A stretch of DNA of 27,444 bases from a virus, in the IMG/VR virus record IMGVR_UViG_3300025769_000663, positions 1-27,444 of that record; one strand, 5' to 3'. This document shows, piece after piece, positions 1 through 22,460 of the stretch. The notes beneath the pieces were generated by a model that was not told where the DNA came from, searched no databases, and saw only the letters and a program-made list of their open reading frames with translations. How positions within the stretch are numbered: position 1 is the stretch's first letter; the number at the start of each line of letters is the position of its first letter. The position numbers were made by a program, and so were the translations under genes.

Positions 1-38
1 CTAAACCAGAATTAGAAAACTTCTTCCGTTGCTTATGA
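1..38 (+). CDS. C-terminal end of an upstream + strand gene (partial)
   Basis: In the third forward frame the window opens inside a reading frame that gives KPELENFFRCL and stops at TGA 36-38. That stop overlaps the ATG of the next gene as ATGA, the usual sign of translational coupling between neighbouring phage genes. The other two forward frames stop at positions 2-4 and 13-15. Only eleven residues are visible, so no function can be given. Confidence 0.5.
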   Translation, partial: KPELENFFRCL

Positions 39-3000
39 AATGCGTAAACCACAATCACCCAGAATTTAAAGCTCTCGAAGAGAAGCTAGGCTTTCCTGTG
101 CCCGTACTTGCTGCTAAAGTAGGAGTATGGATGGAGAATAATAATACCGAAAATTTTCCTACTGCGACAGAGTTGTTTAAACCTAGTCCTATACCAGATA
201 TGGTAGACGCAGAAACTTCTTTAGATAATTCTAAGGTCTCAGAAGCAAAACCTAAAACTCCTACAAAAATTATAGAGCCTAGTGTTGTTCAATCTTTTGC
301 TTTAGGCGTAGAAGAAGTAGAGAAGGCTTTATTAAGAACAAAATTATTCCGTAGGTTTAATGGCCAAATAGAGCCTCACAAACATAAATATCCTGAAGCT
401 CTTAAAGTAATAGGAAGCACCAATGCTGAACTAGAATATAGGGCCCTAAGACTTAAGAAAAGACCTTACTTTGGAGGGCAAGGGAGAGAAGTTCACTATG
501 TGGAAATACTTCCTAATCCTGAAATGTTTTCTACCTCTCCTTCAAAAGTAGAAGAAGGACTCGAAAATATACTTATAGAATTCCTATCTCAATTTGGGGT
601 TACGTTTGAACAGTGGGAAAAAGTTAAAGAACATAATGGATATACTGTCTATGCAGCTGCAGACGCAGTTAGAAATGTTATAGGTTGGGCCAAGGGCTAT
701 GAGTCTGAACTTACAGAAGAAGCAGCTCACATTATATTTGAGCTTGTAGATAACAAAACTAAAGACGCTATTTTAGATAGAGTTATGCAGACTGACAGAT
801 TTAGAGATTTTAAGAAAGAGAATCCTGGATTATACGAAACTGATCTTCAATATGCTACTGAAGTAGCTGGCCAGATGCTGGCTGAAGAGTTTGATGGTCC
901 TAAATCTATATTAGACAGACTGTTAGATAAGTTTAGAAAGATAGTAGCAAAAATATTTGGAAAGGGTGAGATATCTGATCTTGACGCTGCTTTAAAGAAA
1001 GAGTTTGGAGAAATTGCTGATGCTGTTAGAAATGGAGATATAGCTAGGTTCAGTAGAGAAAATATAAGAGGAGGAACTTACTTCTCTGCTCAGAAAAGAG
1101 CAGATGAAATAAGAGCTATGTCTGATCAAATAAAAGTTAACAAGGAAGACCACACATATACATTTGAAGAACAACAACTTCAAAATGTTACTTCAGTAGC
1201 AGATACAGTACCTTTTGATAATTCTAAATTATCTGAAGAAGTTAAGCAAGTTTATGAAATAATTTCAGGGCTTGGTACTAAGTTTCATGAATATGCAGAG
1301 TCTGTTATTAATGAAACTGAACTTGACCCCTCTTTTATGACTCCAGAGGCTAAAAAACAAGCAGATAAAATTGTAGGCTCTCTTTTGAAGAGAATTAAAA
1401 GAGCTAATCCTGGTGCCGTAATCCTTACAGAAGTAGTAGTAGCTAACTTAGAAGCTAACATAGCAGGTACTATTGATATATTAGTTATTAAGGAAGATGG
1501 AACAATGGAGATTTACGATTGGAAAACTCTATCGTCTGATCCTCAAAATTATAAATTCTCTAAATATAAATATCCTAGATTCTCTAGACAGTTAGGACTC
1601 TATAAAACTATATTAGAAACTCCTTCACCAGGACTTAACTGGGGAGGAGGAGAAGTAACTTCTATTAACATTATTCCTATTTATGTTAAGATGACAGGAG
1701 AAAAAATATATAAATTTATTCCTTACCCAAAAATTGAGCTACAATCTAGAGCTGCAATTGATGTAATTGAAAAAGTATTTGGAGAAGTAGAAAATAGCTC
1801 GATCAAAAAGGTAACAGCCTCTCTTTTAGACTTATTAGAAAAGAGAATCTCAAGATTAGCAGGGGAAAAGAAAGACTTTGAAAACGAATCAGAACTTCTT
1901 AAAGAGTTAGGAGAACTAGAAGATATTAAAGTTATAACTAGAATGTTGGCTTCTCTTCAAGTAGAGCTAGCAGAATATTTTAAACCTTCTAAAAAGAATT
2001 TACAGTTGAAAGAAGATTTAAGTTCAGATGAAATTCTTGAACTTCTTAAGCTTGTAAAGATGATGAACCAAGTAAATACTTCTTTGGCCACATCTCTTGA
2101 GAAAGATTCTGAGATTTATAATACTTTTACTTCTCTCAGGCACTACACTGAAATTGCAGAAAAAGCTCTCCATTCTCAAATGCAAGAGAAAGCAGAAAGG
2201 TTCTTAAAATCTGTAGGCTCAAATCCTGATACTAAAGCATTGTTTTTAGCTGTAGAAGATATTACAGGAATTTCTTTATGGCTAGGACATAATGCTACCT
2301 CAAATAACACTTTAATTGCCCTCACAGACAGAGTTATCAAGAAGATAAACTTTACCATTGCTGAGCAATTTGAACGCGATACAGAGGCTCTAATGGAGGC
2401 CTATGAGGATATTGACTCTGTTGACTTTATGATAGACGGAGCTTCTTATGTTTCAGAGGTTAAAAGAGAGTATTATGATGCTCTAAAGGAATTTGACGAA
2501 AGATATAAAGAAGCAGGCCTAGAAGGGAACCAAGAAGCTCAAGAAAAAATACAGAAGGAAAAGTCTAAATTCATTAAAGATAATACTGTAAAAAAATATA
2601 CAGACAGATATTATAAAATGGATAGTCTATTAGACTCTCTTCCAGAAGAAGATCTTAATTCTTGGAATGAAGCTAGGGGAGCTAGAGTGGGTATTAAAAA
2701 TAGAAATAGACATATTTCTCCTGAAAACTGGAGTTCTGAAGATACTGATGAATACAACTTCTTCTCTGAAAGAATGGCAGAAGTTAGAAATAAACATAAA
2801 GAAGTTTTTAACAAATACTTTAACTTATTTAATGAGATTTTTGAAGACGATGTATCTGAAGTATTTGAAAGAATTAGAAAGGAAAAGAAAAGAGAACTTT
2901 CTTCTGCAGAATTTGATGCCTGGGAAAATGCTCAATATACTATTAACCCTCCAAAAGATTATTTTGAATGGGTGAGAAATAATAAAGAAAAAGGTTTAAA

Positions 3001-5425
3001 AGATCCTACTCTTAATGAAGCTGAAAAGAAGTTAATCAAAGAGTTAAATGATAAAAGATCTAAAATCTTACAAACTAATGTAGATTCTATAGGCAGAGTA
3101 AATGGAAAGTCTTTTACTCCGACAGAAGTTTCAGAACTTAGAGCTATAGAAGAGCAATTTGAAAGACTTAAAAAGAAATTAAAGGAAGAAAAAAGAGGTA
3201 AAGAATACCTTAAATCTCTTTCTGAATATGCTTTAATGCATAACTTCCCAGAGACTATATACTACAAAGAGGAGTTGGCTGAATTTAAAAGAAAACTTGG
3301 TAAAAATTATAGAGAAACTGAAGAATTTAAAACTTGGTTTAAAGAAAATCATGTTGAAAATTCATTTACAGGAAGGTTTGAACCTATTATGATTTGGACC
3401 ATGCCTGAATATACTGGGAAAGGAGCTACTAAAACTTTACTGCCTCATTGGAATACCTTTAAAGTTAAAGACGAATATCTTAATCCTGACTATTCTGAAG
3501 ATATATATGGACAGCCAATGCCTAATGCTAAATGGTCTACTGAAATGCAGAAGACAGAAGAAGGTTGGACTATGCCAGGTTGGACAAAAGCTCAATCTAA
3601 GTTCTATTCTGAATTTAGAAAGCTGAAAGAAAAGGGAGATGAAATGCTTCCAATGTCAAACTCTTACCGTTCTAGAAATCCTTTCTCACTGCCTAATGTA
3701 AGGAAAGATGGAAAAATAGATTTAAAGCAAGTATTAAATGTTCCAGCTTCAGAGACTATTAAAAATACTGTAGAAGCTATATCAAAGAGATATACTAAGG
3801 AAGATAATAGAGGAGTTCTCTTAGATGAGTCTGGAGAAACGATGAAAGGGGTTCCATTGTATTATACAGGAGATGCTAATCCTGATACTGTGGATACAGA
3901 TATATTTAATACTATAAGGGCATACTATAAAATGTCTTTAAATGCACATACTAAGTTATCTTATAAACCTATGATAGAAATTCTTAGAACAACTCTTGGT
4001 GACTCTAAGGTTTCAGAAGTGGGTAATACAGGCTCTCCTTTAATAGATACTATTATGAGTAATAGGCGTGGGGTTGATACCAACAAAGTAATAGATGGTA
4101 AGAGCTCTAATGTATACAAAAAGATATCTGACAATATAGACTCTAACTTTTATGGGGTAGAAGATCCTGATTTTATTATCAAGAATGTAAATGTAAACCA
4201 GATTGTAGATGACGTATTAGCTTATACTTCTATAAAAGCTCTTGGTTTTAACTTATACGCGGGTACAGCTAACGTATTACTTGGACAGTATTTATCTTTT
4301 CAAGAAGCTCTTGGAGGACAGTTCTTTACTTATAAAGACTGGGTAGCAGCAGAAAGAGAATATATTATTGACTTTGGTCGCATGATGTCTGATCTTGTCC
4401 GAGGAACTAAAACTTCTAAAGTAAATGCTCTTGAAGCACATTTTAAAACTCTTCAAGATACAGATGAACTTGAACGTAAAACAGTTTCTAAGGAAAAGAA
4501 AGCAAGATGGAGAAAGTTAATGTCCACAAATTCCCTTTTCTTTATCAATCATGGTGGGGAACATAAGATGCAAAATACTCTTTTAATGGCAGCTATGAAG
4601 GCTTATACCATAAGAAATGGTGAAGTCGAAAGAATCCAAGAAGGAGAAAAGAGTATTTATGAAATGGTAGAATTTAAGAATGGAAAAGTTGTTTCTAAGC
4701 TTACAGAAGACCAGAAGTTTGATTTTTCAAATATAGTTAAAGGTCTTTCTCAGAAGTTACACGGGGTGTACACTAAAGAAGATAGAGTTAAAGCTCAGAA
4801 AGAATGGTGGGGTAAATTACTATTCCAATTTAGAAAATGGATGATACCAGGTATGAGAGAAAGATGGGGAGAAGAATATTACGATGAAAGACTTAGAGAT
4901 CATGTTGGAGGATATTATAGAACTTCTGGAGTATTTATCTGGAGTTTAATTAAAAATCAAGATGTTACTCTTGGAGCCATTAAAGCTAGAATGTCAGAAT
5001 TAAAACCTCATCAAAGAGCCAATCTAATTAAATTTGCTTTAGAAAGTAGTGTAATAACTCTTCTCTTTGTTGTTGCAGGTTTGATGCATAATATGAGAGA
5101 CGATGATGATGATTTAAAAGATTCTCTTCTTTTCGGATTTAGTCTCTATAACATAGACAGACTCAGGTCAGAACTTAGATTTTATAGGAGTATTAATGAT
5201 TTCTATAAAATAGCAAGAAGTCCTGCTGCAGCCATGTCTACTATTGAAGATACTACAAAACTATTAGCTCAGCTTTTACACCCAGGAGAAAGGTACGAGT
5301 CTGGAAACTATAAAGGTAAATTAAAACTAGAAAAATATTCTTCTGATCTTATTCCTGTTAGAAATCAATGGAATAAAATTGTAGGAATGGATGACCTGAT
5401 AGAGTTTTACAGACCTTTTAAATAG
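35..5425 (+). CDS. Giant multidomain phage protein with a PD-(D/E)XK nuclease domain
   Basis: This 1796-aa protein is much larger than anything else in the window. I place the start at ATG 35, which overlaps the previous stop (ATGA), rather than at TTG 29. Around residues 225-237 is LTEEAAHIIFELV, which resembles a degenerate HExxH metallopeptidase helix often carried by large polyvalent phage proteins. Residues about 460-525 form a RecB/Cas4-like PD-(D/E)XK nuclease core: a conserved E in TEVVV, D in GTIDIL, then DWKT and RQLGLYKT. A long charged, helical middle follows. One hydrophobic segment lies near residues 1667-1687 (SSVITLLFVVAGLM), followed by an acidic run DDDDDL. The C-terminus (from YNIDRLRSELRFYRS to the end) resembles the C-termini of giant virion-associated proteins of Bacteroidota phages. 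I infer a late, virion-carried and possibly injected protein. The nuclease fold is well supported; its target and role are not known. It ends in TAG, just before a strong terminator. Confidence 0.88.
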   Translation: MKCVNHNHPEFKALEEKLGFPVPVLAAKVGVWMENNNTENFPTATELFKPSPIPDMVDAETSLDNSKVSEAKPKTPTKIIEPSVVQSFALGVEEVEKALLRTKLFRRFNGQIEPHKHKYPEALKVIGSTNAELEYRALRLKKRPYFGGQGREVHYVEILPNPEMFSTSPSKVEEGLENILIEFLSQFGVTFEQWEKVKEHNGYTVYAAADAVRNVIGWAKGYESELTEEAAHIIFELVDNKTKDAILDRVMQTDRFRDFKKENPGLYETDLQYATEVAGQMLAEEFDGPKSILDRLLDKFRKIVAKIFGKGEISDLDAALKKEFGEIADAVRNGDIARFSRENIRGGTYFSAQKRADEIRAMSDQIKVNKEDHTYTFEEQQLQNVTSVADTVPFDNSKLSEEVKQVYEIISGLGTKFHEYAESVINETELDPSFMTPEAKKQADKIVGSLLKRIKRANPGAVILTEVVVANLEANIAGTIDILVIKEDGTMEIYDWKTLSSDPQNYKFSKYKYPRFSRQLGLYKTILETPSPGLNWGGGEVTSINIIPIYVKMTGEKIYKFIPYPKIELQSRAAIDVIEKVFGEVENSSIKKVTASLLDLLEKRISRLAGEKKDFENESELLKELGELEDIKVITRMLASLQVELAEYFKPSKKNLQLKEDLSSDEILELLKLVKMMNQVNTSLATSLEKDSEIYNTFTSLRHYTEIAEKALHSQMQEKAERFLKSVGSNPDTKALFLAVEDITGISLWLGHNATSNNTLIALTDRVIKKINFTIAEQFERDTEALMEAYEDIDSVDFMIDGASYVSEVKREYYDALKEFDERYKEAGLEGNQEAQEKIQKEKSKFIKDNTVKKYTDRYYKMDSLLDSLPEEDLNSWNEARGARVGIKNRNRHISPENWSSEDTDEYNFFSERMAEVRNKHKEVFNKYFNLFNEIFEDDVSEVFERIRKEKKRELSSAEFDAWENAQYTINPPKDYFEWVRNNKEKGLKDPTLNEAEKKLIKELNDKRSKILQTNVDSIGRVNGKSFTPTEVSELRAIEEQFERLKKKLKEEKRGKEYLKSLSEYALMHNFPETIYYKEELAEFKRKLGKNYRETEEFKTWFKENHVENSFTGRFEPIMIWTMPEYTGKGATKTLLPHWNTFKVKDEYLNPDYSEDIYGQPMPNAKWSTEMQKTEEGWTMPGWTKAQSKFYSEFRKLKEKGDEMLPMSNSYRSRNPFSLPNVRKDGKIDLKQVLNVPASETIKNTVEAISKRYTKEDNRGVLLDESGETMKGVPLYYTGDANPDTVDTDIFNTIRAYYKMSLNAHTKLSYKPMIEILRTTLGDSKVSEVGNTGSPLIDTIMSNRRGVDTNKVIDGKSSNVYKKISDNIDSNFYGVEDPDFIIKNVNVNQIVDDVLAYTSIKALGFNLYAGTANVLLGQYLSFQEALGGQFFTYKDWVAAEREYIIDFGRMMSDLVRGTKTSKVNALEAHFKTLQDTDELERKTVSKEKKARWRKLMSTNSLFFINHGGEHKMQNTLLMAAMKAYTIRNGEVERIQEGEKSIYEMVEFKNGKVVSKLTEDQKFDFSNIVKGLSQKLHGVYTKEDRVKAQKEWWGKLLFQFRKWMIPGMRERWGEEYYDERLRDHVGGYYRTSGVFIWSLIKNQDVTLGAIKARMSELKPHQRANLIKFALESSVITLLFVVAGLMHNMRDDDDDLKDSLLFGFSLYNIDRLRSELRFYRSINDFYKIARSPAAAMSTIEDTTKLLAQLLHPGERYESGNYKGKLKLEKYSSDLIPVRNQWNKIVGMDDLIEFYRPFK

Positions 5426-5543: not shown

Positions 5544-6317
5544 TCATAATCTTACAATTTTTTTTAATTTTTCCATTTCATCTGCATCAATTGGCATAAC
5601 TTTTCTAATATCATTAATACTTAAATCAGGTTTATTATCTAAAATATATTCGTTAGCTGCTTCTCTTGTTGAGAAAGTTTTATCTGATTGTTTAAGTTTA
5701 ATCGTTGTAGTTCTTTCTATAAGAAAAGATTTGGTTACAAAATAAAAACTATCCCCTTCAAATACCTCAACACCGTCTTCAGTTGTGAATAATGGTTTTT
5801 TAGTTTTTCTCCAATCTTGAATTCCTTGAGAATATTTACTTTTATATTTTTCTTGAGTAATTTCGAATACTACTACATTATCTTTTATCTCTATTTTGGA
5901 TAAAATTGTATTTTGGTCTTTCCAATCTCCAGGTATTAGTTGGACTTTATCTCCAACAGTAAATATTTCACCGTCAGATAATCTTTTGACTAAATGTATT
6001 GTACAATCTTGTCTTAATAGTTCACTAATAGTGAATTTTGCATATTCTGCTTTATTCACATATAATCCTGTTTCTTTATCTAAAATATAAAAAGATTGGG
6101 TAACTCCACCTAAAATAGATAATATTTCATAATCATCTTCAATAGCTTGTTCCCAATATTTAGTATCCTTTATTTCCTTTTCAGGGACATAATAATCAGA
6201 GTATTTTGAATGGCAAGGGGAGTAACTGTTAGTTGAATCACCAACCCCAACTATCATACCTTCTTCCCAATCTTTAGGAAGAGAAGGATATTTTTGGATT
6301 AATCTGTATTCTTTCAT
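5544..6317 (-). CDS. Hypothetical phage protein of a Bacteroidota phage family
   Basis: The protein has 257 aa from ATG 6317, which lies one base after the stop of the upstream gene. An in-frame ATG at 6371 would add 18 lysine-rich residues and overlap the neighbour by 53 nt, so it is less likely. It starts YRLIQKYPSLPKDW. It contains FTTEDGVEVFEGDSFYFV near residues 180-197 and STREAANEYILDNKP near residue 220. I have seen this repeat-like layout in uncharacterised proteins of Bacteroidota phages, where such modules can occur more than once in a protein. No catalytic residues or membrane segments are visible. It is the last leftward gene and converges on the giant gene. Function unknown. Confidence 0.75.
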   Translation of the reverse strand: MKEYRLIQKYPSLPKDWEEGMIVGVGDSTNSYSPCHSKYSDYYVPEKEIKDTKYWEQAIEDDYEILSILGGVTQSFYILDKETGLYVNKAEYAKFTISELLRQDCTIHLVKRLSDGEIFTVGDKVQLIPGDWKDQNTILSKIEIKDNVVVFEITQEKYKSKYSQGIQDWRKTKKPLFTTEDGVEVFEGDSFYFVTKSFLIERTTTIKLKQSDKTFSTREAANEYILDNKPDLSINDIRKVMPIDADEMEKLKKIVRL

Positions 6318-6318
6318 G

Positions 6319-6606
6319 TTATTGTTTTTTTTGCACTCTACCATACTCTTCTTTGATACGGGTAATTTCATCTTTCATTTCTTTTTCAAGTTGTTTAGAG
6401 TATTTGTTATATAAATATTCCAAGTCCTCATCATCTAGATTAATTAAATTTTCACCCATTTGAGCAAAACCTATGCATACATCAGAATAACCTGTTTCAA
6501 TATTTAACCTAAAAAGTATTTCTTTATCATCATCTTTTTTTAGTTTTTTATATTCTTGATAGTTTTGACAGAATAATTTTATTTTGTTTTTTTGTAATCT
6601 GCTCAT
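6319..6606 (-). CDS. Hypothetical protein, charged, probably helical
   Basis: This 95-aa protein starts at an ATG that overlaps the TGA of the upstream gene (ATGA) and ends one base before the next start, so the three leftmost genes look like one transcript. The C-terminal half is a charged helix rich in E, K and D (LEKEMKDEITRIKEEYGRV), possibly a short coiled coil. One or two cysteines do not form a metal-binding pattern. I do not recognise the family. Confidence 0.65.
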   Translation of the reverse strand: MSRLQKNKIKLFCQNYQEYKKLKKDDDKEILFRLNIETGYSDVCIGFAQMGENLINLDDEDLEYLYNKYSKQLEKEMKDEITRIKEEYGRVQKKQ

Positions 6607-8499: not shown

Positions 8500-9598
8500 A
8501 TTTAAGTAATAAATTCGTTAATTCTTTTGTACCTATTGCTGGTAATTCCTTAAAAGCATTAACTTCTGCTAACATTAGTAAGTCTGTGCTTATAGCCGGA
8601 CCCCTTCTATTAGCTATTACTGAAAATTCCCTGTATTTGTCTCTAAAGCCTCTTCCCCCTTCATTGATAGGATAACCCTCGTAAGTAGTTATCTCGTGTC
8701 TATGGGGAGAAAATAGGCCTAATAAAAGATCATAATCCCTACCTAAAGTCTTATTTTCACCTAAGCCATCTACAGATGGTTGTAATTTGTTAGCTTTTTT
8801 ATTTTGTACACCTTCAGTTGCTTGCGCTTGTTGGTGAACATTAACTACAATATACTTCCATCTATCCCTCATTTTCATACAATATTTCCTAGAAAAAACT
8901 TCCATAGCTTTTCTAACTTCATATCCTTGACTTTTTTCTGGTGTTAACAAACTTATATGGTCTGTAATTATAAATACATATTCATTAGGATGATTAGGAG
9001 TGTAATAATCTTCTATTTGTTCTTTCTTAACTGTATTGCCTTCTTTCTTTTCTATAGTTTTATAGGTATATGTTCCATTTTGATCTGCATAAGCTCTAAC
9101 TCTAGAATATATGCCAAAAGGATTACGTATATCATCTATAAACTCTATTACTTCCTGGAATTCAGAAAAATAAGATCCAAGACTTTCTAATTTCTCAATA
9201 ATATCTTGGCTTAAAGATGGTCTATCGTTAAACTGTGAATCTAACTCATCTGGAGAAACCTTTAAACCAAATTTTTCAAATAAAGTATAAGACATTACTT
9301 CATACATCTTTTTTTCTTTAGATTCTTCTAAACAAAAATAAAATATTTTTAAAGACATCTTATCTTTATTTTTTAAATAAAACTTATACGTGTTATATAA
9401 AAATAAAAAATCAGTTATTTTAGTTTTACCTACTTTTTGATTAGCAGTTACACCTATGTATCTTCCTTTTTGAAAACCAGGTAAATATTTAGAAAGTCTA
9501 GGGAAAGGTAATGGTATATTTACTATCTCACCCCTATCCCTAGCTTCTTTATTTTCCTTTATTTGGTTTAATACCCTTGAATATAAAGTATCTGACAT
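8489..9598 (-). CDS. DnaB-like replicative helicase (RecA-fold domain)
   Basis: The protein has 369 aa. It has PFPRLSKYLPGFQKGRYIGV at residues 31-50, the entry strand of the DnaB/KaiC-type ATPase domain. Walker A at 52-59 is ANQKVGKT, with A in place of the first G. Walker B is FIITDHISLL (Asp near 213), and a glutamine-rich strand VNVHQQAQA lies near 253-260, as in the DnaB motif that senses nucleotide and DNA. There is no DnaB N-terminal domain, as in many phage helicases. It would unwind DNA at the phage fork as a ring. It overlaps the upstream gene by one base and the Sak4-like gene by 11. A large insertion between Walker A and B (about residues 95-205) is longer than in DnaB. Confidence 0.85.
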   Translation of the reverse strand: MSDTLYSRVLNQIKENKEARDRGEIVNIPLPFPRLSKYLPGFQKGRYIGVTANQKVGKTKITDFLFLYNTYKFYLKNKDKMSLKIFYFCLEESKEKKMYEVMSYTLFEKFGLKVSPDELDSQFNDRPSLSQDIIEKLESLGSYFSEFQEVIEFIDDIRNPFGIYSRVRAYADQNGTYTYKTIEKKEGNTVKKEQIEDYYTPNHPNEYVFIITDHISLLTPEKSQGYEVRKAMEVFSRKYCMKMRDRWKYIVVNVHQQAQATEGVQNKKANKLQPSVDGLGENKTLGRDYDLLLGLFSPHRHEITTYEGYPINEGGRGFRDKYREFSVIANRRGPAISTDLLMLAEVNAFKELPAIGTKELTNLLLKYGV

Positions 9599-10873: not shown

Positions 10874-11678
10874 AATCTTTTATAATTTTATGTAACGATA
10901 AGAAATCTTTACTTATTTCTTTTTCTGGATCTTCCGCCGGAAAAGCCATACCTATTGCTCCGTATAATGTACCTACTTCTGACCTAATATAAGGTTTTGT
11001 ATGCTTAAAATCGTCTAAAACGTTTACTTTGAAATTTAAGCTATATAATTGGGTTTGTATATCATACATAAAATGTCCAAATAGTTTTGGTTTTATAGCA
11101 TCTTTAAATATTTTATTTAATGCTCTTGCCATAATAAGTTCTATAGCTCCTATTTGACCATCATTTCTTTTTTTCCCTAAAGCAGATACAACAGCTCCAA
11201 TCTCAAAGGTATCTAAAATATTTGGATTTACCAAATTATTTTCTAAAATATTTTTGGATTTTAACTTTTGTATAATATGAGGGTGATAATCAATAGAAGG
11301 AGTATATACACTTTTAATTTCCTGAATTACTGAAGAAGTTTTCTTCTCTTTGTAATTAGCATAAAATCTTAAAAGTATATCTATCACTTCTTGGCTATTG
11401 TTATACTTTGCTATTTCTTTACTTATCCGTGCTTTCGGAGCAGCATCTAAAGATTCTACATCCGAAAAAACAATATTTAGTAAAGTTTTATTAAGCCTTT
11501 TATTTTGAATAGTTTCGTCCTCAAGAATTTGTAAAGCTTCTTTAACAGAACCTTCCATAACTATTTTTTCAACTAATTGGTTAAAAAATTCAGATGAATT
11601 ATTAACATCTTTATTATTTATAATTTCTAATATAGTATTACTTAAACTATGTAAATTTCTTTCGCTAATTTCTTTCAT
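10860..11678 (-). CDS. Hypothetical helical protein downstream of the VWA gene
   Basis: The protein has 272 aa. Its ATG overlaps the TGA of the VWA gene (ATGA), so the two are probably co-translated. It looks all-helical and repeat-like in the N-terminal half (LEIINNKDVNNSSEFFNQLV, KEALQILEDETI, QEVIDILLRFYANYKEKK), as in HEAT-like or TPR-like scaffolds, though no regular repeat can be traced. The C-terminal part has an aromatic segment (PKLFGHFMYDIQTQLYSLNF). It could be a partner or substrate adaptor of the MoxR/VWA pair. That rests on coupling alone. Confidence 0.65.
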   Translation of the reverse strand: MKEISERNLHSLSNTILEIINNKDVNNSSEFFNQLVEKIVMEGSVKEALQILEDETIQNKRLNKTLLNIVFSDVESLDAAPKARISKEIAKYNNSQEVIDILLRFYANYKEKKTSSVIQEIKSVYTPSIDYHPHIIQKLKSKNILENNLVNPNILDTFEIGAVVSALGKKRNDGQIGAIELIMARALNKIFKDAIKPKLFGHFMYDIQTQLYSLNFKVNVLDDFKHTKPYIRSEVGTLYGAIGMAFPAEDPEKEISKDFLSLHKIIKDYVCS

Positions 11679-13186
11679 CTATAAATAAATTTTCCTTTAG
11701 TATATTCGCAAAATTTTTTCAATTGATCATGTTTAGTGCCAATAATTACACCATTAACTATAAATTTCATATTAGTCTCTTTACAGACTTTTTTATGAGT
11801 TTCTATAGCTTTTGTAGTATAAAAAGTATCTTGGCCATCACAAACAATAATTATGTTCACAGGAAGATCATGTGAAATCTTCTTGTGCTTTTTAAGATAT
11901 TTTTCTGCTTTTTCCATAGCCTGTGTTAGGGAGTGTTGGATGTTTGTACCTCCACCCCTAGGACTATGTTTTTTTAATTTATTAAAATATTCTTCTGGTT
12001 TAGTTGCAGAATCTTTAGTTATTACATATTCTCTATGAATATCTACTTCATAGTAATATAATAATAAATCAGACTCTCCTTCTGCAACAGAATTTAATCT
12101 GTTATGTAGAATTGTATTTCTCCATAAGAGTTTATTACTGCTAGACATAGAACCAGAATCGTCTATTAGTACAATAGATAACTGTTTCTCATCATCTACA
12201 ACATACCTATCTTTATACTTCAATTGATTAGTAACTAATTTATATTGAAATAAAGGATCTGTATGACTAATTAGAGGGACTTTACTTATCTGTTCAATAT
12301 TTGACATTTGCATAAGTCTTTTCTTTTTAGACTTATTATTTGCTGTAAATTTCCTTTTATTTTTAATATTCCATTGTTCTATAGAATCTACAGTATTTTC
12401 TACATTTAATATTTCATTAGTTTCTCTATCTAAAAGAGAATTTAAATAACTTCCAGGTACATCTTGATTAATACCCAAGGTTTTATCTGTAAAACTATTA
12501 GGTTTTATTTTTTCTAATAATTCTACATCTTCAGCCATTTGCTGTACATTTGAATGGGATAAACCCAAGTCTTCTAAAGGTGATTTAGATTTTCCTTCGC
12601 CTTCACCTTCTTCTTCACCATTTTCACCATCTTCTCCGCCTGCACCTTGGCCTTGGCCTTCCCCCTCTTCTCCTTTACCGGATGCTATAGAGTTTTTAGT
12701 AATTACAAAAGAAACCATAACTGCTTTATGCAGAGGTGTTCCTGGAAATTTATTGTAATCCACAGTCATTAAGAAATTTATAAATTCCTTATCTTCCGGA
12801 GAAAGATTTTCCATATCTATGTGTAAAGCATCTTCACGTCTTTTATCAAATAATTCGTGAGTAAATATATTATATACCTCGTTAATAAGATTAATTGGTA
12901 TAGCATTTATAATTTTTGTTACCTCGCTAGAGTTCTTTATGTGAGTGTCATAAGACATCTTACTACCATTCTTAACCTCTCTATCATAATTATACGTTTG
13001 TGCCGTAATCTTATTAAAGAAAGATCTAAGAGAATAAAGAGTATACCCTATTTTTAAAGGGTATACCGTCTCTTCTGTTTTGGTGAATAGATTACCTATG
13101 TCATCTCCATAATACTCAAACTTATACAATACATCCTCTAATTTAAAAGGAGAAGGTAATGGTTTTTTTTCTTTTGTTCCAAACAT
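11675..13186 (-). CDS. VWA-domain protein with acidic linker (CobT-like partner of MoxR ATPase)
   Basis: The protein has 503 aa in three parts: a helical N-terminal domain (1-165), a Gly/Glu-rich acidic linker near 168-203 (GEEGEGQGQGAGGEDGENG and so on), and a C-terminal von Willebrand factor A domain. The metal-binding MIDAS site is complete: DDSGS at 342-346, Thr near 414 in GGGTNI, and Asp near 450 in IIVCDGQD. The order acidic linker then VWA, directly downstream of a MoxR/CobS-type AAA+ gene, is the arrangement of CobT and of MoxR-associated VWA proteins, which form ATP-driven remodelling or metal-insertion complexes. Phage versions are often labelled cobaltochelatase subunits, but no other cobalamin gene is here. 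I favour a remodelling role on an unknown phage or host target. Its start has the same five residues, MFGTK, as the SSB. Confidence 0.82.
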   Translation of the reverse strand: MFGTKEKKPLPSPFKLEDVLYKFEYYGDDIGNLFTKTEETVYPLKIGYTLYSLRSFFNKITAQTYNYDREVKNGSKMSYDTHIKNSSEVTKIINAIPINLINEVYNIFTHELFDKRREDALHIDMENLSPEDKEFINFLMTVDYNKFPGTPLHKAVMVSFVITKNSIASGKGEEGEGQGQGAGGEDGENGEEEGEGEGKSKSPLEDLGLSHSNVQQMAEDVELLEKIKPNSFTDKTLGINQDVPGSYLNSLLDRETNEILNVENTVDSIEQWNIKNKRKFTANNKSKKKRLMQMSNIEQISKVPLISHTDPLFQYKLVTNQLKYKDRYVVDDEKQLSIVLIDDSGSMSSSNKLLWRNTILHNRLNSVAEGESDLLLYYYEVDIHREYVITKDSATKPEEYFNKLKKHSPRGGGTNIQHSLTQAMEKAEKYLKKHKKISHDLPVNIIIVCDGQDTFYTTKAIETHKKVCKETNMKFIVNGVIIGTKHDQLKKFCEYTKGKFIYR

Positions 13187-13210: not shown

Positions 13211-14368
13211 TTATTCATTAGTCTTATTAGACATCTTATTAGATCTTTCCTGTAAAGATTCTAGTGTTTTATAAACATTATTCATTTTATCTACTACCTT
13301 TTTCTTGTAAACAGAATTCTGGTCTGTACAAGTTGCATGGGTAAAGATTTTTATTTGCTTTTCAAAATCTAAAAGAATAGCAGTTTGTTCTTTACTAGAT
13401 TTGCTTAAGAATTTAGCAGTATTTTCTTTAGAAGAATAATAATCTACTACTTTCTCACTTTCTTTTATGATTTCATAATCAGCTCTGATATCTTCTAAAT
13501 GCTTAATTTGAGTTTCTGCTTCTTTTATACCAGCATTGCAAAAACCTGAAAAATATTTCAAATCAGCTAAATTACCTGTATGTTGATACATTTGTCCAGC
13601 ATAAACCATAGTCCTAGGACTTATAGTTTTCTTTAGTGTTGCATTTGAGGCTACTGCCGCAATACTAACTAAATTTAAACCGGAATTAAGTAATTCATTT
13701 TGATCAAGATTAAATACTTTCTTGTATAGGCTATTATAAGCATCTTCGTTATAACCATTCCACTTAACTTCATATTCCATAGGGAATCTTTCCATTAAAG
13801 CTTGTATACTGCTATCTTCAGATACTTCTTCACGAGATCTGTTAGTAAGACATACAATAAATTTAGTTTTAATATTGAATTGCTGGCTTCCATTACGAAA
13901 TACTCCAGAAGTTAAAATATCCTTTAAACGTAAAAGAACATTAGCCGGACAATCCAATAATTCTTCAAATACAACATATTCATGATTCATGAAAGAGTTT
14001 TCTACGTTATAGTAGATTTTTCCACTTTCCTGGAATTCTTTCATATTTAAACCGCCTAGAATCAAATCTTCTGTAGATCCTTCTCCAAGAGCTTGAACAA
14101 ATGGTTCAATACCTATTGTATTAAAGAATAATTCAGTCATTTCTGACTTTCCATGACCACCAGGGCCCCACAAAATAACATTATGGCTTATATTGTAACC
14201 AATAGATAAGATATCAGCAATACTATTTGCCATAATAAACTTATCACCTAAAGCTTTTCTAATAGTTTTAGGGTTTACAACACTCTTTACTTTTGCTACT
14301 GATGTAGTAGCTTCTGCTGTTTTAGCATCTTCAACTTTTTCTACTGCTGTAGAATTTTCTGTACTCAT
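13211..14368 (-). CDS. MoxR/CobS-type AAA+ ATPase
   Basis: The protein has 385 aa. It has a lysine- and alanine-rich, probably disordered N-terminus (1-30). Walker A is GPGGHGKS at 68-75. Walker B at 131-136 reads YVVFEE, with Glu where the family has Asp before the catalytic Glu. The sensor-1 Asn is near 176 (CLTNRS) and an arginine finger lies in LMERFP near 194. A charged helical C-terminal part follows. MoxR ATPases form hexamers that, with a VWA partner, unfold or activate other proteins; CobS is the cobaltochelatase member. The VWA gene follows after 24 nt, strongly suggesting one complex. The leader before the ATG is A-rich (AAAAAAAATCAAAAAC) with no Shine-Dalgarno. Confidence 0.85.
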   Translation of the reverse strand: MSTENSTAVEKVEDAKTAEATTSVAKVKSVVNPKTIRKALGDKFIMANSIADILSIGYNISHNVILWGPGGHGKSEMTELFFNTIGIEPFVQALGEGSTEDLILGGLNMKEFQESGKIYYNVENSFMNHEYVVFEELLDCPANVLLRLKDILTSGVFRNGSQQFNIKTKFIVCLTNRSREEVSEDSSIQALMERFPMEYEVKWNGYNEDAYNSLYKKVFNLDQNELLNSGLNLVSIAAVASNATLKKTISPRTMVYAGQMYQHTGNLADLKYFSGFCNAGIKEAETQIKHLEDIRADYEIIKESEKVVDYYSSKENTAKFLSKSSKEQTAILLDFEKQIKIFTHATCTDQNSVYKKKVVDKMNNVYKTLESLQERSNKMSNKTNE

Positions 14369-16768: not shown

Positions 16769-17143
16769 TTAAGCTACTAAGTTATTAGAGCTATCAGTTC
16801 TTAGTACCCTTTGAATAGTTTCAAGATTACGTACAGCATCCTCGTAAGTAAGTTTGTAATACGTATTTTTGAAAACTAAAGGCTGCTCAGCACCATCTAA
16901 AACCTCTTTACGGCTTTTAACTTTAGACTCTAAATAATCTAAGACATTAGCCTTATTTACAGGAGTCATAGCACAAAAGTCCTGGGCAGTAATTTGATCT
17001 TCAACATCTTGATTATCCTCAGTAGGGAATGTGATGTCGTTAAATGCGCAATTCTTTAAGAATTTTGCAATTGTCATGTTTTCTGCTGGAGAAAGGTTTG
17101 AAAAGGTACTTCTTTTCTTCGTTGTTAGTTTTGTCGTAGACAT
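16769..17143 (-). CDS. Hypothetical protein
   Basis: The protein has 124 aa. It opens with a lysine/threonine tail (STTKLTTKKRST), then LSPAENMTIAKFLKNCAF and an acidic loop (TEDNQDVEDQ). Its codon use is more balanced than that of its AT-rich neighbours, suggesting a well-expressed or conserved gene. The AACAAAAAAG leader before the ATG is A-rich. It is the last gene before the element at 16712. I do not recognise it; a small DNA-associated or structural role cannot be excluded. Confidence 0.6.
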   Translation of the reverse strand: MSTTKLTTKKRSTFSNLSPAENMTIAKFLKNCAFNDITFPTEDNQDVEDQITAQDFCAMTPVNKANVLDYLESKVKSRKEVLDGAEQPLVFKNTYYKLTYEDAVRNLETIQRVLRTDSSNNLVA

Positions 17144-17168
17144 CTTTTTTGTTTTTTAAGTTATAAAA

Positions 17169-17651
17169 TTAGTAAAAAATAGTACGGAAGTAAGTTATAT
17201 ATCCTGAAACACCTAATAGAAATAATATAAATCTGGTGATCTTCGTAATTTTTATTGTTTCTAGTTTTTCCATTGATTGTAGTATAGCATTTGCGCTTTC
17301 TTTAGCTTCTGGATTATTACCATCAGAATTTTCAGATTTTATTTTATTTAGTTCTGTCACAAAATTTCTCATAGTATTTAAATCTTTTTCTGGGTCTCTA
17401 TTCCATAATAAACTTATTTTAGTTATTATAATAATTAAATATAATACACCATAAATCCAAAGATTACTTATTAGTACAAACATTAAGATTATAGCTAATA
17501 TAAATAAGTAAATTGGTAGTTCTATCCTAAAAAATTTATGTACTAGATAATTAAGTAAATTTAACATAAAAAATCTATACATTACATAGTTAAGTATGTT
17601 TAGCGTAAAAAATACAACCAGGGATACATTGATAAAATAGTCTAGTATCAT
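17169..17651 (-). CDS. Multi-pass membrane protein
   Basis: The protein has 160 aa. Hydrophobic segments lie near residues 5-24, 45-63 (PIYLFILAIILMFVLIS) and 66-82 (WIYGVLYLIIIITKI), with one near the C-terminus (RFILFLLGVSGYITYF). A charged loop of about 50 residues (NRDPEKDLNTMRNF...ESANAILQSMEKLE) separates the third and last segments. The layout is holin-like or exclusion-protein-like, but no lysis genes are next to it. It follows the gene at 17657 by 5 nt. Function unknown. Confidence 0.6.
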   Translation of the reverse strand: MILDYFINVSLVVFFTLNILNYVMYRFFMLNLLNYLVHKFFRIELPIYLFILAIILMFVLISNLWIYGVLYLIIIITKISLLWNRDPEKDLNTMRNFVTELNKIKSENSDGNNPEAKESANAILQSMEKLETIKITKITRFILFLLGVSGYITYFRTIFY

Positions 17652-21610: not shown

Positions 21611-21979
21611 TTATTCAACACTAACAACACTAAATTTACTATAACTATATAATCCCCAGGAAATAGTAGTATCACAAAAATCTTCGGAAATACTTATAAA
21701 ACTATTTTGTGAAAGAGAAGGACTATAATCTATGTATTCTTCTACACAAATAATATCTCCGGAAGTGTAATTATATGAGTATATATCTGTATATAGAATA
21801 CCTTTTCTACCATCCTCAAAACAAATAACTAAATTTGTTTCTCTGGGCTGATCAGAAGAATAAGTAGCAGGTTCATCATAACATAAATCTTCTACTAAAC
21901 AGTAGTTATTTGCTTGCTGATTTGAGGCATTGCAAGAAAATAGAATGGTTGCTAAAATTAACCAAAGAAATGTTTTCAT
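21611..21979 (-). CDS. Small lipoprotein A, exported
   Basis: The protein has 122 aa. It has an N-terminal signal peptide MKTFLWLILATILFSC with Cys16 as the likely lipidation site, then NASNQQANN. The mature part is acidic and tyrosine-rich. The segment FEDGRKGILYTDIYSYNY, followed by SGDIICV, matches the second lipoprotein at 23853 (YPDGKKDIIYEDYPILYQ, then DDTVFV), so the two are paralogues. Extra cysteines (CLVEDLC, FCDT) could form disulfides outside the cytoplasm. Phage-encoded lipoproteins often block entry of other phages, which would be a reasonable but unproven role here. It lies downstream of the long hairpin at 22008. Confidence 0.7.
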   Translation of the reverse strand: MKTFLWLILATILFSCNASNQQANNYCLVEDLCYDEPATYSSDQPRETNLVICFEDGRKGILYTDIYSYNYTSGDIICVEEYIDYSPSLSQNSFISISEDFCDTTISWGLYSYSKFSVVSVE

Positions 21980-22007
21980 AAAATTAATTTTTTTTTAATA
22001 ATAAAAT

Positions 22008-22079
22008 ATGTCAAAATAAAACCAAGTTCTACCGCGGCAAAATTGCCTTATATACCTGGTTAAAGGTAGAACTTAGTTT
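22008..22079 (-). terminator. Hairpin element with a long stem and structured loop, copy 7
   Basis: A 15-bp stem is formed by 22019-22033 and 22065-22079. It is unbroken only on the - strand, where the single odd pair (23 with 75) becomes G-U. The 31-nt loop contains a further small palindrome, GGCAAAATTGCC. After the stem comes TTTATTTTGACATA, one base off the usual box, 29 nt before the lipoprotein ATG. This is by far the largest copy and may carry extra function. Confidence 0.7.
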
Positions 22080-22090
22080 GTTATTGATTT

Positions 22091-22209
22091 TATATAAAGC
22101 ATGGCTAAAGAGTGGCTACTGTCGAGCTTAATGGGTATTTCAAGGTTTCAGATTTCCACTCGTTACTACAAACCTTTTTTCACGCCACGCTTCATATACA
22201 AGCCGTTGT
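22091..22209 (-). ncRNA. Candidate structured RNA or palindromic element with pseudoknot
   Basis: This non-coding segment between gene 22221 and the long hairpin has a 15-bp closing stem (22091-22105 with 22184-22198), fully paired on the - strand with two G-U pairs. Inside, 22142-22148 pairs with 22170-22176 (7 bp), and 22110-22115 pairs with 22156-22161 (6 bp). These two helices interlock, so they would form a pseudoknot. Next to the closing stem is a short hairpin (TACAACGGCTTGTA, 22196-22209). Base composition is richer in G and C than around it. It could be a small RNA whose 3' end is the hairpin at 22019-22079, a cis-acting leader of the lipoprotein gene, or a palindromic repeat acquired from a host chromosome. 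Confidence 0.4.
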
Positions 22210-22220
22210 AGGCAATTGCA

Positions 22221-22460
22221 CTATTCACAATTAGGGTACTTGCAATTGTTGTTTAATGTACAACTTTCTCCAAACCTTTTAACATATTTACAAAAGTGCA
22301 ACTGTTCGCTTCGCCCTACAACATCAGGTATAGCAAATAATTTTACTATCTCTTGTGCAAAAGCATCGTCAAAATCAATCCTCTCTTCAAATGTTAATTT
22401 GCTTATATCTTCTGTTCTGTGTGTCAGAAGTAATTGCTTCAATCTATCTATCTTATCCAT
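22221..22460 (-). CDS. Cysteine-rich small protein
   Basis: The protein has 79 aa. An acidic helical N-terminal part (DKIDRLKQLLLTHRTEDISK; FEERIDFDDAFAQEIVKLF) precedes a C-terminal cysteine cluster (HFCKYVKRFGESC, NNNCKYPNC) that may bind zinc. It is 16 nt downstream of gene 22477, and both are somewhat less AT-rich than nearby genes, suggesting a shared origin. The family was not identified. Confidence 0.6.
   Translation of the reverse strand: MDKIDRLKQLLLTHRTEDISKLTFEERIDFDDAFAQEIVKLFAIPDVVGRSEQLHFCKYVKRFGESCTLNNNCKYPNCE

Follow-up and report, generated by a model that had tools for sequence, protein, structure and literature searches.

HDV-like ribozymes are built around a local P3 hairpin that lies within a double pseudoknot. 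Among them, the theta ribozymes are found mostly in phages, on the sense strand and beside the 3' end of phage tRNAs, and 77% of those associated with tRNAs abut the tRNA within 1 nt (PMC10879173). Circular permutations occur naturally among hammerhead and twister ribozymes, 5S rRNA and group II introns, special cases being the genes for tmRNA, rRNA, tRNA and SRP RNA (PMC10085705). Phage RNAs of unknown function are, as such, a known kind. The RNA that we describe here lies at positions 22109-22185, on the minus strand of a 27,444-nt stretch of viral DNA (IMG/VR record IMGVR_UViG_3300025769_000663), referred to below as the window.

The window is probably part of the genome of a Bacteroidota phage, since its helicase-like protein matches crAss-like, Bacteroides and Flavobacterium phages: crAss-like phages share 36-38% identity with it among the best ten matches listed, and the 83 phage records matched include 29 Bacteroides and 29 Flavobacterium phages. 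Elsewhere in the window, genes for a vWA-domain protein and a MoxR-type AAA protein are neighbours at 11675-13186 and 13211-14368 (both on the minus strand), and a protein of 1,798 aa, whose residues 424-533 form a PD-(D/E)XK nuclease domain, is encoded at 29-5425 on the plus strand, opposite to most of the longer ORFs of the window. Two ORFs on its own strand enclose the RNA. The upstream one (79 aa, 22221-22460) matches PHROG 34806, of unknown function, with residues 57-78 and has no Pfam match; the downstream one (122 aa, 21611-21979), which is presumably the lipoprotein of a preliminary description of this DNA, gave neither PHROG nor Pfam matches.

That description had presented 22008-22209 as a non-coding palindromic segment, richer in G and C than its surroundings, with two 15-bp stems unbroken only on the minus strand and further helices that would interlock. 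Most of this holds. Both stems are present (22091-22105/22184-22198 and 22019-22033/22065-22079), with two G-U pairs in the first and one in the second on the minus strand and mismatches at the same positions on the plus strand. No closed ORF of at least 60 aa overlaps 22008-22209, and its GC content is 0.37, against 0.29 for the window and 0.26-0.31 for the flanks, the value for 22109-22185 being 0.42. The palindromic segment did not stand as one unit, however: the conserved unit is 22109-22185 only, the first stem is an outer helix around it, and the hairpin at 22019-22079 is a separate feature. When 22008-22209 was shuffled 500 times with its dinucleotides preserved, an uninterrupted stem of at least 15 bp appeared twice, and since stems that long occur at three other places in the window (near 16901-17200 on the plus strand, and 9245-9444 and 6145-6344 on the minus strand), stem length alone is not decisive. 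RNA folding of 22008-22215 gave z-scores of -5.74 for the minus strand and -2.79 for the plus strand. The separate hairpin (15 bp, 31-nt loop, minus strand) lies downstream of the conserved RNA and is followed by a T-rich tail; it is possibly the end of the transcript, outside the conserved RNA, and among the sources compared it was seen only in the window and in the near-identical relatives L292 and L306. A promoter and terminator scan of the window returned promoters at chance level and no terminator at a loop limit of 8, by which a hairpin with a 31-nt loop is not called.

The window holds what we call a type I copy, which matches the covariance model R1 in full (71.1 bits, E 9.6e-14, model positions 1-88) and is absent from A2, the alignment used to train R1. 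Read along the minus strand, the outer stem Pout pairs 22184-22198 with 22091-22105 over 15 bp, and similar outer stems were noticed by eye in the clade copies. Within it, P0 pairs CGT (22182-22184) with ACG (22161-22163); its third pair competes with Pout and P2, position 22161 being common to P0 and P2, and R1 includes two P0 pairs only. The 5' strand of P0 is followed by GAAAAA (22176-22181) and, beyond the 5' strand of the pseudoknot helix P1 (AGGTTT, 22170-22175), by GTAGTA (22164-22169), both of which are unpaired and conserved in the alignments. P2 is formed by GAGTGG (22156-22161) and CCACTC (22110-22115, P2'), and P3 by CTG (22149-22151) and CAG (22119-22121, P3'), whereas P1 is closed by AAACCT (22143-22148, P1'). 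The joining stretch TGAAATACCCATTAAGCTCGA (22122-22142) occupies the site of an optional P4 hairpin in other copies. P1 crosses P2 and P3, and the relatives show covariation in this arrangement, in agreement with the interlocking helices first suspected. The P3 strands flank P1' and the junction, so that P3 is not a local hairpin. The GAA/AGUA of the conserved RNA may be a bulged-G (loop E) motif, and CCUUGAAAUACC may resemble 23S rRNA.

The preliminary description had suggested a BLASTN search of phages, and this search showed that the RNA is not confined to the window: copies are carried by many unrelated phages, whose hosts include Vibrio, Cellulophaga, Listeria, Bacillus, Pectobacterium, Erwinia and Klebsiella, and by numerous IMG/VR contigs. 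The window copy matched unannotated stretches of KVP40-like Vibrio phages (82-84% over 65-67 nt, E to 5e-10) and, at values that are individually non-significant, Vibrio phage 2.275.O (E 0.1-0.2), Cellulophaga phages (0.3-0.8), KZY1 (1) and Listeria phages (4). With other copies as blastn queries, KZY1 was matched at 6e-15, together with Vibrio phage Va1 and its relatives, Bacillus phage Eldridge and Pectobacterium phage PM2, and further queries retrieved nine Klebsiella records and Erwinia phage Hena1 (E 9e-3). R1 gave E-values of 4.7e-20 for Va1, 9.3e-12 for 2.275.O, 1e-11 for KVP40, 2.3e-11 for Eldridge, 1.4e-10 for Listeria phage P100, 5.6e-9 for phi19:1, 4.6e-7 for PM2, 1.7e-6 for Hena1 and 4.3e-4 for RaK2; RaK2 is the one Klebsiella record scored by R1, and KZY1 belongs to the training set of the model. 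Pattern scans of IMG/VR, one of them for skipping-rope RNA, yielded at least 313 loci. Many of the at least 120 loci from the first scan were chance matches in coding DNA, and these were left out of the copy set, which comprises at least 158 copies that have the head motif and full P1 pairing and are distinct in their first 70 nt (one of them, L210, is probably a coding false positive). The GC-rich copy L152 had no match when searched against named phages. One copy (L321:281-373, minus strand) is in a contig binned as Candidatus Pacebacteria, perhaps from a phage of that group.

The picture in host genomes is different. A pattern for the 3' core, which excludes the AGCTCG variant of the window, occurred in 6 stretches among 84,980 genomes; R1, which covers that variant, found 2 of 349 Flavobacteriaceae genomes under strict filters, and one of these two was the search centre, chosen for having a copy. 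A plasmid search gave a single match, in Acetobacter (E 1). The RNA thus appears to be rare in the host genomes searched and to reside mainly in phages.

The fold is supported by covariation. From 74 parsed type I rows, 52 were kept after near-duplicates and 11 named rows with a large or misparsed P4 were dropped; A2 comprises 19 sequences from the 74, selected for one linker type, in which 99.2% of 353 cells are paired and both sides change in 15 of 20 pairs. In A3, which consists of 81 R1 matches and for which P0, P1 (as pseudoknot), P2, P3 and the optional P4 were counted, 96.4% of 1,441 cells are paired, with both-side changes in 18 of 20 pairs. The covariation score of A3 was 0.608 as compared with 0.148 in shuffles, none of 500 reaching it, and slid controls were paired in at most 50.8%. 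P0 covaries, with 91.9% of its cells paired, and both sides change in all six pairs of P2; the middle pair of P3 flips between A-U (43 of 81 rows) and U-A (34 of 81). It must be taken into account that A3 was aligned to R1, which introduces a bias toward the nested helices of the model, that rows L171, L223 and L302, split by a P4 insert, count twice each, and that some rows are close relatives. P1 is absent from the R1 helices, and therefore its 98.3% pairing, with both-side changes in five of six pairs, is not due to the R1-guided alignment, although its letters belonged to some of the search patterns. The unpaired GAA-AA and UAGUA and the ACCC junction are near invariant. Since the sequences were collected by patterns, the stretches covered by these patterns are in part conserved by design of the search, and the same applies to the invariance of AATACCCATT-AG-TCG, which was a search seed. 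Covariation in P0, P1, P2, P3 and P4 answers the doubt, raised when the segment was first described, that it might show none.

Some copies lack the 3' half downstream and have it upstream. Their order is the 5' strand of P5, AGUGAAG, CUG (P3'), UA, P2' and a loop with P0, followed by GAAAAA, P1, GUAGUA, P2, CAG (P3), P1', GAAAGACCCGAA and the 3' strand of P5. Of 24 permuted copies listed, 20 were aligned (A4), and 92.9% of 637 cells are paired, with both-side changes in 21 of 34 pairs; the covariation score reached 0.357, compared with 0.178 in shuffles, none of 500 equalling it, and sliding the alignment left no more than 55.8% of cells paired. The weak points of A4 are the helix within the P2 loop, paired in 80.5%, and the invariance of five of the six P1 pairs. 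By reading of the sequences, P5 is a closed hairpin in type II and an open stem in the permuted copies, where it is P2 that is closed by a loop. Also by reading, the permuted order is that of PM2 (P2 GTCATC/GATGAC, P5 ATTAAC/GTTAAT) and of Hena1 and RaK2 (P3 CTC/GAG in both), and R1, which has the unpermuted order, found these three copies nevertheless. One core is thus strung in two circular orders. As the fold is permuted, neither an RNA end nor a seed located at an end is likely to be essential. That it keeps the core but not the ends speaks against an antisense seed placed at an end, and also against a cis switch that depends on a fixed expression platform; the varied downstream genes point the same way. 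Permutation is easier to reconcile with a binding or decoy surface, or with catalysis, than with the action of an antisense sRNA or of a cis switch.

The genomic context was examined for the 158 gathered copies. A tRNA or tmRNA is near 61 of them (tRNA in 59, tmRNA alone in two), counted up to 600 nt before and 700 nt beyond the head, and in all 61 the nearest one is on the same strand. The remaining 97 have no nearby tRNA or tmRNA, some loci being too short to tell. In 19 of 40 cases the upstream tRNA ends 3-16 nt before GAAAAA; the Hena1 copy sits between tRNA-Gly and tRNA-Glu, and that of PM2 is at the tRNA cluster of the phage. In the locus of Listeria phage P100 (L006, DQ004855.1 126589-131384), the tRNA strands given in GenBank are opposite to those called by ARAGORN. 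With ORFs of at least 75 aa taken as genes and the 16 of 158 copies inside called ORFs set aside, both neighbours are on the strand of the RNA in 75 of 142 copies and both are opposite in one, the rest being mixed (18 and 13) or having one neighbour or none (35).

This near-constant sense orientation where both neighbours agree (75 versus 1) is what would be expected of a cis-acting element, that is, a leader, riboswitch, antitermination or RNA-stability element controlling the neighbouring genes or tRNAs. Moreover, 22 copies are followed by an ORF of at least 70 aa with a ribosome-binding-like site and a start codon located 67-171 nt beyond the point where P1' starts. The ORFs themselves speak against it. 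Only one similar pair is found among the 22, and the Pfam matches of ten are as varied as thymidylate synthase (ThyX), UvsX/RecA, D12 methylase, DUF2460, an HTH protein, an AAA kinase-like protein and deoxyribosyltransferase, with three having no match. Many copies lie between tRNAs, and no enrichment of terminator-like hairpins is seen behind the RNA (4 of 81, against 2/77, 0/73, 2/65, 4/65 and 3/77 in controls). We consider control in cis improbable. The variety of the downstream genes makes a leader unlikely, and the suggestion that the segment is a regulatory leader of the lipoprotein fails on the same 22 unrelated ORFs and on the copies between tRNAs.

The RNA-like pairing could also be the by-product of a mobile or structural DNA element, such as an integron-type attC hairpin or a palindromic repeat. 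In the clade of the window, the copies L293, L295, L297, L309, L310 and L311 are near-identical, with palindromic flanks and differing surroundings, an arrangement, noted by eye, that suggests an element able to move in one piece; similar palindromes stand beside L309 and L311, again by eye, and the flanks in the window may have an attC-like look. Nevertheless, both the G-U pairing and the strand bias indicate RNA, phages without such outer flanks still conserve the core, and copies are rare in host genomes. Copy number was counted with R1 in 18 records selected for holding the RNA: there was a single match in 13 and two matches in five, four of which have one copy in pieces around a P4 insert and one, the record of L221, has two copies, so that 17 of 18 are single-copy. 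An origin of the pairing in such a DNA element is very improbable in our estimate, and the idea of a host-derived palindromic repeat finds no support in the single-copy records and in the few host genomes with any copy. The guess of a phage small RNA has fared better and agrees, as far as sequence can tell, with an element that is conserved, covarying, on the sense strand and mainly in phages.

An Rfam check, also proposed at the outset, gave no Rfam 15 match at the gathering score in the window, and at E<=10 the sole matches of the region 21980-22260 were to a miRNA model (4.8) and to a snoRNA model (7.5), both well short of the cut-off. The core is modelled by no Rfam 15 family in sets of 17, 7 and 8 loci; in relatives, the Rfam overlaps are those of tmRNA on three copies (L154, L041 and L139) and of skipping-rope RNA on four P4 inserts. 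There were no HDV-like Rfam matches, though theta ribozymes may lack an Rfam model of their own, and neither GOLLD nor ROOL is matched by the RNA. Two candidate identities were rejected. Skipping-rope RNA (RF02924) is not the parent family, being nested in only 2 of 10 loci and not matched in the window, and identity with RNA C or RNA D of phage T4 was discarded because R1 matched nothing in the T4 tRNA region (L010) at E<=10. No description of the RNA came up in open-licence literature searched by titles and abstract starts. As no Rfam 15 family matches, the RNA would be a new class; an unnamed earlier sighting is possible, for instance in a large candidate list such as that of PMC8040213.

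Such a class could, as the main rival to the reading that we prefer, be one of small self-cleaving ribozymes, in which the core would cut during transcription and separate tRNAs, tmRNA or cistrons, and in which the open peripheral stem may differ from copy to copy, as in hammerhead types I-III or in P1, P3 and P5 of twister. The compact pseudoknot with its many conserved unpaired bases is in line with this, as is the setting, which resembles that of phage theta ribozymes (tRNA 3' end, sense strand, mostly phages; PMC10879173). Natural circular permutation is a trait of hammerhead and twister (PMC10085705), and the fold tolerates it, although it is not required of ribozymes. Against catalysis, the P1'-P3' junction takes several distinct forms (types I, II and IV), which is much for a catalytic core, and in the 19 copies closest behind a tRNA the distance from the tRNA to GAAAAA is 3-16 nt, whereas 77% of the tRNA-associated theta ribozymes are within 1 nt of their tRNA (PMC10879173). 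We hold self-cleavage to be a tentative reading, and a rather unlikely one; equally tentative is its broader form, a ribozyme class spread over phages of Bacteroidota, Pseudomonadota and Bacillota in at least two permutations, which would cut stable-RNA and operon transcripts.

The variable P1'-P3' junction and the variable distance to the tRNA end lead us to favour, not strongly, a trans-acting RNA over self-cleavage. The explanation that we prefer, and to which we give about an even chance, is a phage-encoded structured RNA of ~77-100 nt that is embedded in longer transcription units and acts in trans through its three-dimensional core. In the window it would be transcribed from the minus strand, as other copies would be within tRNA/tmRNA arrays or ordinary phage operons, and it may be released or stabilised by the same host processing that frees the neighbouring tRNAs. 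The core, GAAAAA-P1-GUAGUA with the ACCC/UUAG junction, would then bind, or serve as a decoy for, a conserved component of the host's translation or RNA-processing machinery, to the benefit of the phage. Counting against this explanation are the lack of any terminator enrichment that would mark a discrete 3' end and the 97 of 158 copies with no tRNA or tmRNA close by. A covarying fold common to phages of Gram-negative bacteria, Gram-positive bacteria and Bacteroidota, and rare in the bacteria searched, points to a job that many phages need, to be done against or with machinery common to bacteria. Since natural circular permutation is known for few RNAs, several of them catalytic, a cleavage assay could reveal or exclude a new ribozyme class. 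Carriers that can be grown, such as Eldridge, the KVP40-like phages of V. natriegens and the Cellulophaga phages, make these unexplained RNAs of phage tRNA arrays directly testable.

Several copies keep company with other stable RNAs. In L154, the R1 match (270-359, minus strand) is inside a tmRNA-model match (106-588, minus strand), in its pseudoknot region; that match scores 51.4 bits, just over the cut-off of 47, its alignment passes over 201 nt, and ARAGORN called no tmRNA on this locus. Permuted-tmRNA matches at L041:9113-9394 and L139:2271-2611 (both minus strand) start 15 nt after the R1 match, and a second tmRNA model overlaps the copy in both loci. Skipping-rope RNA is found in P4 at L171:7299-7415, L302:9291-9407, L223:3112-3203 and L234:1077-1166, where it appears as an RNA domain hosted by another RNA; L171, L223 and L302 are above the cut-off and L234 is below it, the alignment being seen for L302. 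A pattern scan for skipping-rope loci, which missed the nested L171 and L234, gave 2 of 10 nested in the conserved RNA and no trace of it around the other 8, among which L330 offers just 36 nt of upstream sequence. None of 345 Bacteroidota genomes had a skipping-rope match over the cut-off, and the one weak match, L327, has a tRNA at its locus.

Compared with known systems, the conserved RNA is close to the theta ribozymes in being small, pseudoknotted, mostly found in phages, on the sense strand and often at the 3' end of phage tRNAs; it departs from them in that P3 is not a local hairpin, permuted forms exist and the named hosts are mainly not gut bacteria. Skipping-rope RNA is likewise a small pseudoknotted RNA of phage contigs, and is nested in the P4 of four copies, but differs in sequence and fold. 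GOLLD and ROOL are structured RNAs without a known function, and a 463-nt GOLLD match (L280:926-1388) is in the same tRNA array as a copy of the conserved RNA; both are linked to phage tRNA arrays and are several times longer. RNA C and RNA D (species 1 and 2) are annotated in T4, a Tevenvirinae phage, as small stable RNAs of its tRNA cluster, and PM2, a member of the same subfamily, carries the conserved RNA at its own tRNA cluster. Hammerhead and twister are unlike it in that the conserved RNA has no Rfam match and its catalysis is a candidate only, and they share with it the natural circular permutations of one fold.
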